Origin: a virus
DNA length: 30,501 nt
IMG/VR virus record: IMGVR_UViG_3300042691_029653
Coordinates: 1-30,501 of that record
Direction: 5' to 3' (one strand)
The notes beneath the pieces are model-generated. The model made no database searches. It saw nothing but the letters and a program-made list of their open reading frames with translations, and had not been told where the DNA came from. Both the position numbers and the translations under genes were made by a program. Positions 17,340 to 21,829 of the stretch are shown here, piece after piece. The first letter of the stretch is position 1, and every line of letters starts with the position of its first letter.

Positions 17340-17357
17340 TGTGTCAAGATTTGTGTC
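17340..17357 (+). repeat. Arm-type repeat 1 near attP
   Basis: TGTGTC-AAGATT-TGTGTC, two TGTGTC half-sites 12 bp apart. Related copies are at 17521 and 17722, all in the same orientation and flanking the tRNA-like core. They are probable integrase arm-binding sites (inference). The stop codon of the 55-aa minus-strand gene lies in this copy. Confidence 0.6.
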
Positions 17358-17511
17358 CTGACAACATCCGCTCAATTTGTGCAGCAGCCTCGATGTTGAG
17401 CGACATACGCCACCGATCGAACCACTGGCTCAGTGCAGCACGAAGCTGATCGTCGTTGGAAACCACCGGCTCGGCAACGGAAACGGGGGCGGGCTTCTTC
17501 TTGCTCGGCAT
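17344..17511 (-). CDS. Small hypothetical protein beside attP
   Basis: A 55-aa product. The frame is open further upstream, but the start at 17511 has a clear AGGAGCT site and avoids the attP region. The N-terminus is basic (MPSKKKPAPV); the rest is helical (LRAALSQWFDRWRMSLNIEA) and ends HKS. It sits between the lysis cassette and attP, and in a lysogen it would be close to one prophage end. Function is unknown; a small DNA-binding or accessory factor is possible. Confidence 0.6.
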   Translation of the reverse strand: MPSKKKPAPVSVAEPVVSNDDQLRAALSQWFDRWRMSLNIEAAAQIERMLSGHKS

Positions 17512-17520
17512 GGTAGCTCC

Positions 17521-17538
17521 TGTGTCAATCTTTGTGCC
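17521..17538 (+). repeat. Arm-type repeat 2 near attP
   Basis: TGTGTC-AATCTT-TGTGCC, a diverged copy of the arm-type repeat with the same 12-bp period, on the left side of the tRNA-like core. Confidence 0.5.
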
Positions 17539-17623: not shown

Positions 17624-17677
17624 GGCGACTGCAACGGTTTTCAAGACCGCTGCCTTAAACCACTCGGCCACCTGTCC
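17624..17677 (-). other. attP core: 5' half of a tRNA-Ser(UGA) gene
   Basis: Read on the minus strand from 17677 this is a tRNA-Ser 5' half. It has acceptor strand GGACAGG, TG, D arm GCCGAGTGGTTTAAGGC, then anticodon stem GCGGT, loop CTTGAAA (anticodon UGA) and ACCGT, then a short variable-arm-like stretch. No T arm (GGTTCGA) or acceptor 3' strand follows, so this is not a complete tRNA gene. It lies just downstream of the integrase between arm-type repeats, the standard place for attP. The crossover is probably in or next to the anticodon stem-loop (about 17634-17650). Carrying the 5' rather than the 3' part of the tRNA is unusual. Confidence 0.75.
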
Positions 17678-17694
17678 AGCCTAGGAAATCCGCC

Positions 17695-17708
17695 GTTTCA
17701 CGTGGAAC
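17695..17708. promoter_or_regulatory. parS-like ParB-binding site
   Basis: GTTTCACGTGGAAC matches every specified position of the parS core GTT-N-CACGTG-N-AAC bound by chromosomal ParB. Of the outer bases of the 16-bp form, the right one (A) matches and the left one (C instead of T) does not. It lies 18 bp from the tRNA-like core, inside the attP region. Binding is not shown. Confidence 0.5.
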
Positions 17709-17721
17709 AGACCGCTGTGGG

Positions 17722-17739
17722 TGTGTCCAGATTTGTGTC
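17722..17739 (+). repeat. Arm-type repeat 3 near attP
   Basis: TGTGTC-CAGATT-TGTGTC, 17 of 18 bases identical to repeat 1. It overlaps the 3' end of the integrase gene and lies on the opposite side of the core from repeats 1 and 2. Confidence 0.6.
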
Positions 17740-20590: not shown

Positions 20591-20877
20591 CAGTGCCGTC
20601 CCTGCAGCACCTCGGCCACGCGTCCGATGTTGACGTTGAACCGACTGGCCAGCTCTGACTGCGTGATTTCGGGATCATCTTGGAAGGCTTGCCGAATTGC
20701 AGCAGCCAGGGCAGGGGTCATGGGCTGCGAGGCATTGGGGCGGCGACCATTGCGCATTCGCTTTTTGCGATAAAGCGCCAGCCCCCGTTGCTCGAGCAGG
20801 TCACAGATTAGTTTGGCCCGAGTGCGACTGCACTGCAGGATGGCAGCCAGTTCCACTTCGGGGTGAACGTCATTCAT
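20590..20877 (-). CDS. Helix-turn-helix DNA-binding protein
   Basis: A 95-aa product; the start at 20877 overlaps the ArdC stop (ATGA). Two helical DNA-binding-like units are visible: residues about 5-35 (EVELAAILQCSRTRAKLICD) and about 58-95 (AIRQAFQDDPEITQSELASR followed by FNVNIGRVAEVLQGRH), the latter a good HTH. A basic linker (KKRMRNGRR) joins them. It may regulate the operon or act in replication; nothing in the sequence decides between these. Confidence 0.65.
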   Translation of the reverse strand: MNDVHPEVELAAILQCSRTRAKLICDLLEQRGLALYRKKRMRNGRRPNASQPMTPALAAAIRQAFQDDPEITQSELASRFNVNIGRVAEVLQGRH

Positions 20878-21710
20878 GCGGCGAGCCTTTCTTCCTGTGG
20901 TTGGATTGCTTCGAGAAACTCGACTGCTTTGCTGGCCTGGCTGGCTGCCTGCACGATGAACCGCTTGTCGCCGCGCAAGGCTTCGAGCCAGCTGGCGATG
21001 TAGTTCACGTGGTCGTTGCGGGTGGTCTGCTCGATCCCGAACTCGGCGCACAGGAAGGCCGCTCCCAGCTCGGCAATCAGCTCCTCGAAAGCTACACCGC
21101 CCGCTTGCTTACGCGCTTCGAGCCGGTCGAGCCGGTGCTTGGCTCCGGTCCAGTGGGTCGCTTCGTGGAACAGCACCGAGTAGTAATGCTCGGGCGTGTG
21201 GAACACCTCGAACGGTGGCATATGGATGGTGTCGGTAGCCGGGCGATAGAAGGCAGAGCCGCCGCCCGTCTCGAGTTGGATGGCATGGCTGCGATCCATC
21301 AGCCAACGGTCGAGCGCCTCGAGCCGCTGGTCAGCCGACAACATGGTCGGCACCGGAACCTCGGGTGCGCCTTCGACCTGGGCTTCGTTGAATACGTAGC
21401 TGCCCCGCAAGATTAGGCGATCGTCCTTGGCCGTCTCGCCTTTGATCACCTTGTAAAAGATGATCGGGGTGCCGCGTTCGCCTTTGCGCACCTGTGCGCC
21501 GAGCTCCTGCCATTGCTTGAAGGTGGCCCAGCGATTGCTGGCATAACCTTCGGTCCACAATGAAAGGACATTGACGCCACGGTAGCGCTTCTTGGTGACA
21601 GCATTAATTGGCAGGCCGCTGGTCATGCCATGCCAGCACGGACGCCACTGACCGGCAGTGTCTATGCTGGCCAATATGCGGTTGGTCATGGTTTCGTGAA
21701 GGTCACGCAT
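20874..21710 (-). CDS. ardC: ArdC-type anti-restriction protein with zinc metallopeptidase domain
   Basis: A 278-aa product; the start at 21710 is set by GGAGAGAG, two bases upstream. The N-terminal domain (about 1-110; PINAVTKKRYRGVNVLSLW, RWATFKQWQELGAQVRKGER) is the ssDNA-binding ArdC/DUF1738 domain. The C-terminal domain has LFHEATHWTGAKHRLDRLE (His182, Glu183, His186) with FEELIAELGAAFLCAEFG as third-ligand region, the metallopeptidase fold of polyvalent proteins. ArdC proteins coat or protect entering DNA and counter restriction. Here the gene follows ssb and a hairpin terminator. Length is close to plasmid ArdC (about 300 aa). Confidence 0.88.
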   Translation of the reverse strand: MRDLHETMTNRILASIDTAGQWRPCWHGMTSGLPINAVTKKRYRGVNVLSLWTEGYASNRWATFKQWQELGAQVRKGERGTPIIFYKVIKGETAKDDRLILRGSYVFNEAQVEGAPEVPVPTMLSADQRLEALDRWLMDRSHAIQLETGGGSAFYRPATDTIHMPPFEVFHTPEHYYSVLFHEATHWTGAKHRLDRLEARKQAGGVAFEELIAELGAAFLCAEFGIEQTTRNDHVNYIASWLEALRGDKRFIVQAASQASKAVEFLEAIQPQEERLAA

Positions 21711-21724
21711 GGCTCTCTCCAAGG

Positions 21725-21774
21725 AAAAGGGGGGCTCCGCCGGATCGACAGGAGGGGGAGGTGGCGAAGCCCCC
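21725..21774 (-). terminator. Rho-independent-type terminator between ssb and ardC
   Basis: On the minus strand, a 12-bp stem (21763-21774 with 21729-21740, one mismatch) with a loop of about 22 nt ends in TTTT at 21728-21725. It would partly separate ardC and the small genes downstream from the recombination genes. The interval 21711-21829 holds no gene. Confidence 0.6.
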
Positions 21775-21829
21775 AAGGTGGCGGCGCTGAGGGAGGGCGC
21801 GCCGCTAGATCCCGACTTGGGAAGGGTCG

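Follow-up and report, generated by a model that had tools for sequence, protein, structure and literature searches.

The window, a viral record (G000) analysed over its full 30501 bases, has no terminal repeats and encodes head-tail connector, capsid, tail and internal virion proteins, a terminase small subunit and proteins of recombination/replication type. An ArdC-like antirestriction protein with ArdcN and zincin-like MPTase-PolyVal domains is also present, at 20874–21776. The features considered here lie in and around the attP region (Table 1), where a tyrosine integrase gene (int) and a probable excisionase gene are found. The integrase keeps the FHDLRHE motif and the terminal Tyr region. 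The attP site lies 60 nt downstream of int and outside it; the preliminary description had placed an integrase gene adjoining and upstream of a partial tRNA, on the same strand, and this is how the genes are arranged.

The partial tRNA is read on the minus strand. From 17677 down to 17635, its letters GGACAGGTGGCCGAGTGGTTTAAGGCAGCGGTCTTGAAAACCG are those of nucleotides 1–43 of sphingomonad tRNA-Ser(UGA), that is, the 5′ strand of the acceptor stem, the D arm and the anticodon stem-loop. Host genes for comparison were collected with a degenerate pattern from 120 Sphingomonadales genomes, 21 of which yielded tRNA-Ser(UGA). In seven of those 21 (L119, L120, L123, L124 and L134–L136) the intact gene matches the window at all 43 positions, which excludes a chance match, and ARAGORN confirmed a complete tRNA-Ser(tga) in the host examples checked. 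Window and host genes cease to match after tRNA position 43, which belongs to the 3′ strand of the anticodon stem. The segment does end before the T arm, as had been described, with its boundary about 11 nt short of the 17624 first proposed. No complete tRNA was found in the window by ARAGORN or Rfam, and a search of both strands found neither T-arm-like sequence nor 3′ acceptor; on these results, the idea that the window has a 3′ half or a complete tRNA at another place was rejected. The alignment and the searches together bear out the original observation that attP carries the 5′ half of tRNA-Ser(UGA) and not the 3′ half.

Pairs of the form GRCACA-N6-GRCACA flank the core on both sides and, judged by their sequence, look like putative arm-type Int sites. 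Nearly all relatives (introduced below) have GGCACA-N6-GGCACA directly after int, in the same 12-bp register as the P pair of the window, and five of them (L005, L089, L108, L109 and L117) have P′ pairs in near-identical position to the first P′ pair of the window, at core +98/+110. Between int and the tRNA half, inside attP, lies a parS-like near-palindrome whose minus-strand letters are TGTTCCACGTGAAACG; the expectation was 0.07 matches at up to two mismatches. It occupies the spot where relatives hold a promoter-like element, and was not seen in their spacers. Among the proteins scanned, none matched a ParB family. The 55-aa ORF on the P′ side, for which no family match was found, would sit downstream of the host tRNA promoter in a lysogen.

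Table 1. Coordinates of features in and around the attP region of the window
Feature	Position	Strand	Evidence or remark
Second P′ arm-type repeat pair, GACACA-N6-GACACA	17340–17357	−	20/21 match to P arm copy; window only
55-aa ORF, P′ side, codirectional with tRNA	17344–17511	−	GGAG ahead of ORF
P′ arm-type repeat pair, GGCACA-N6-GACACA	17521–17538	−	core +97/+109
tRNA-Ser(UGA) 5′ half, attP core block	17635–17677	−	43/43 identity to host genes
Segment holding putative strand exchange (tRNA positions 26–42)	17636–17652	−	limits from related lysogens, moved to window by alignment
parS-like near-palindrome CGTTTCACGTGGAACA	17694–17709		1 mismatch to TGTTNCACGTGNAACA
P arm-type repeat pair, GACACA-N6-GACACA	17722–17739	−	right after int stop; register shared with relatives
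Tyrosine integrase, 338 aa	17738–18754	−	Pfam PF00589 E=3.6e-15; phrog_1 E=2.6e-50
Probable excisionase/RDF, HTH_17, 101 aa	18622–18927	−	PF12728 E=7.5e-9; phrog_66 excisionase E=4.9e-7

Junctions in related lysogens

Megablast of the window against phage records gave no match, and tblastn against phage records gave, among the matches listed, only integrases below 30% identity. A broad integrase alignment was dominated by generic integrases, and an alignment of fragments was used instead. A scan of viral contigs for the integrase found a second contig of the same phage (L003) along with relatives whose integrases share about 49–56% identity with it. Five other phage contigs (L005, L006, L009, L089 and L094) have the 5′ half of tRNA-Ser(UGA) at the identical place after int. 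In L094 the integrase reading frame appears broken, with attP intact. The 43-nt phage half of L009 equals the tRNA-Ser(UGA) 5′ half of genome G024 (L118), making G024 a candidate host.

Four related lysogens present both attL and attR: Rhizorhabdus histidinilytica UM2 (L097/L107) and Sphingomonas baiyangensis L-1-4 (L096/L108), where L096 and L097 came from a genome scan; G353 (L111/L117), where L111 came from a survey of Sphingomonadales; and a viral contig, L004 (L004/L109). Their integrases are about 49–56% identical to that of the window, int is open and whole, and attL and attR are about 41–46 kb apart. The order at attR is the same in all four: int, arm sites, phage 5′ half, host 3′ half. 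ARAGORN called an intact tRNA-Ser(tga) at each of these attR junctions. At attL the host upstream region with its promoter is followed by the host 5′ half and then by phage P′ DNA. A pattern search of the three whole lysogen genomes recognised the tRNA-Ser(UGA) 5′ half at attL and attR only, and the intact gene therefore appears to be single-copy.

In L004 and L111, six of 42 positions distinguish the half at attR from the host half that was displaced, and this identifies the phage half as the one that is used in the attR tRNA. All six differences are in the D arm; the acceptor strand is the same. In these two cases (L004:7065–7154 and L111:1332–1421) lysogeny has converted the D arm, and has done so in the one tRNA-Ser(UGA) that was recognised.

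No lysogen of the exact window phage was found in genome contigs or in three partly overlapping draws of about 400 Sphingomonadales genomes each, nor was a closer lysogen found in the family of G123, a genome carrying the 43-nt half of the window. The preliminary description had proposed that after integration the functional tRNA would take its 5′ half from the phage, as well as the region upstream, where int lies on the same strand. This is the arrangement in the four related lysogens, where the host promoter has been left at the other junction; for the window phage it is carried over from them.

The lysogens also bracket the point of strand exchange. D-arm mismatches extend up to position 25 (L004, L111) and P′ sequences diverge after position 42 (L107 versus L097), confining the exchange to tRNA positions 26–42, so that by sequence comparison it is placed within the anticodon stem-loop. 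The anticodon loop CTTGAAA occupies 17645–17639 of the window, with the anticodon TGA at 17643–17641, and the anticodon stem (GCGGT/ACCGY) and 7-nt loop together have the form of an inverted core of the usual kind, the overlap being 7 bp. The window site fits an att site of a tRNA-targeting tyrosine integrase of the anticodon sublocation, the putative exchange point being taken from the relatives. Crossover at the anticodon loop is reportedly among the sublocations recognised by Williams in 2002 (sublocation A).

Transcription of the rebuilt tRNA

We consider it very probable that the tRNA is rebuilt at attR, with its 5′ half from the phage and its 3′ half from the host, and that this tRNA is transcribed from phage-supplied DNA. 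The junctions are read directly in four relatives, and sequence comparison brackets the exchange; we infer that the promoter is active, that RNase P trims the transcript and that the window phage itself integrates. Because the half on the phage is the 5′ and not the 3′ one, integration would bring phage P′ genes up against the host promoter and host 5′ half at attL, and the attR tRNA would join a phage 5′ half to a host 3′ half. Since the host promoter stays at attL, the essential single-copy tRNA would have to be transcribed from DNA that the phage supplies. In most relatives it probably has a dedicated promoter of sigma70-like type, situated in the stretch that separates the tRNA from the int arm sites, and the phage leader would then be trimmed by RNase P.

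The candidate promoter is a pair of blocks that align in the int–tRNA spacer of eight of ten related elements, one TTGCAG(A)-like and the other TATAGT/TATGAT/TAAGAT/CATAGT/TATGCC-like, the conserved type being TTGCAG-16-TATAGT. The second block ends 27–28 nt ahead of the tRNA in seven elements. Position weight matrix (PWM) scores were about 8–13 in 7/10 elements (in L097 by way of a different hexamer pair) and 0.3, equal to background, in the window; host tRNA-Ser upstream regions mostly scored 0–6 with the same PWM, which is an approximate E. coli sigma70 matrix, not specific to sphingomonads, and scores host tRNA promoters poorly. Shuffle p-values for the seven, taken one sequence at a time, were 0.01–0.14; L111 and L094 were not significant. 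The aligned pair of blocks suggests that most of the relatives bring their own dedicated constitutive promoter for the tRNA. It also qualifies the earlier proposal that expression of the tRNA could come under prophage control: the DNA upstream is indeed from the phage side in the relatives, but a promoter-like element between int and tRNA in most of them suggests autonomous expression.

The window departs from this pattern: it lacks the promoter-like element, and the alignment shows a gap of 12 nt in just the place of the −10 block. A sigma70 promoter in its spacer was rejected, because the −10 candidate CTAGGC ends 1 nt before G1 of the tRNA and cannot give a leader. Lysogens of the window phage could make the tRNA by read-through from int or from an atypical promoter; another possibility is that the site is defective.

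Read-through could in principle apply more widely, with the tRNA in lysogens made mainly from the int operon and the supply of tRNA-Ser(UGA) following prophage gene control. The gene order would allow it, int being immediately upstream on the same strand, with no terminator detected between int and the tRNA half and no recognisable dedicated promoter in the window. We nonetheless consider it unlikely, given the promoter-like element that lies between int and tRNA in most relatives. Moreover, int is usually near-silent in lysogens, so that read-through from it would starve the cell of its only UCA reader. In favour of read-through there is a precedent in archaea, where the integrase promoter of pTN3-like elements is said to drive the recombinant tRNA (PMC8371274).

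Alternatively, what is conserved in the int–tRNA spacer could be additional sequence bound by Int or Xis, with the tRNA expressed from another source. The −35-like TTGCAGCGGT resembles, and in effect repeats, the core half-site GCAGCGGT and may therefore have been conserved for Int/Xis binding rather than for transcription; the block also abuts the arm repeats. Yet the −10-like TATAGT/TATGAT/TAAGAT is unlike either core or arm sites, promoter spacing is kept, and the tRNA of a lysogen needs transcription from somewhere on the phage side. We regard this explanation, too, as improbable, and a dedicated promoter in most relatives as the preferred reading.

At the other junction, most relatives have an ORF codirectional with the tRNA that begins no more than about 60 nt from the P′ arm sites, so that the host tRNA promoter at attL points into phage genes. 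The products of such ORFs include YspA-like SLOG (L005, L117) and T5orf172/MUG113 (L009, L108) proteins. A reciprocal exchange of promoters can be imagined, although we think it quite unlikely: the host tRNA-Ser promoter would drive the P′-side ORF, the tRNA would pass to a phage promoter abutting Int/Xis arm sites, and occupancy by Int or excisionase could thereby tune UCA decoding.

Precedents and the wider integrase group

The preliminary description had held that most tRNA-targeting phages carry the 3′ part of the tRNA, and counts from Islander agree: among 3919 islands, 3760 have a 3′ tDNA fragment and 159 a 5′ fragment (PMC4383910). With 3′-half carriage the usual case, conventional 3′-end integration might be supposed here as well, the half in the window being a relic and the true site elsewhere, but this is extremely improbable, as the window has neither T arm nor 3′ half and the junctions of four relatives fall exactly at this place. 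A review states that target tRNAs in bacteria keep their original promoter with very few exceptions, and that 5′-half cases are seldom met in bacteria (PMC8371274). Carriage of a 5′ half is thus a rare and already known class, to which the window phage and its relatives are a well-documented addition.

The Islander 5′ class resembles the four related lysogens in that the element restores the 5′ part of the tRNA and displaces the host 5′ fragment; what sets the present case apart is that the phage integrases form one group, found in Sphingomonadales, and that a promoter-like element is conserved with them. The archaeal pTN3 site also lies in a tRNA 5′ half, and the recombinant tRNA is expressed from element DNA (PMC8371274). 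By contrast, pTN3 integration splits int, while attP here is outside int, which stays whole in the related lysogens. Prophages and islands at dusA likewise replace the 5′ end of their target, and putative −35/−10 elements are found upstream of it after integration (PMC4482086), but dusA codes for a protein, a tRNA-modifying enzyme, and is not a tRNA gene. In the tRNA-dependent lysogeny of mycobacteriophage Fionnbharth, integration would disrupt an essential single-copy tRNA, which phage DNA rescues from a phage promoter (PMC10865867). Loss of such a tRNA would be averted by phage DNA here too; phages of the Fionnbharth type encode a whole tRNA in trans, whereas here only half is carried and the tRNA is rebuilt at attR in the relatives. 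We searched the literature for prophages at tRNA-Ser in sphingomonads and for tDNA accompanied by a promoter, and found nothing relevant.

The phages, together with four lysogens in which both junctions are available, form a natural set of cases where phage sequence has taken the place of the promoter, the leader and sometimes the D arm of an essential tRNA in its only copy. How 5′-half integrases keep their target tRNA expressed becomes directly testable with this set, and the relatives and the window supply integrases and att sites for sphingomonads.

The same arrangement occurs at tRNA-Ser(GCU) in two genomes, G549 and G617, whose integrases are more distant (E about 1e-61 to 1e-64). The host promoter and displaced 5′ half adjoin int, and the intact tRNA lies behind phage DNA; TTGACN-N17-TAGGNA is common to the phage DNA ahead of it. 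In G549 each of the two junctions is on a contig of its own. G617 has attL and attR and, in addition, the attP junction in excised form: L153 (G617:C2, 4210 bases) joins both prophage ends over the common core at the tRNA-Ser(GCU) 5′ half (compare L154 and L155). An excised junction assembled beside the integrated copy suggests spontaneous excision. The tRNA half of L153 differs by 1 nt, and the contig also has several indels; these may be errors of sequencing. The 5′ half of a tRNA-Arg(CCU)-like gene lies next to a third integrase (L115, 32% identity).
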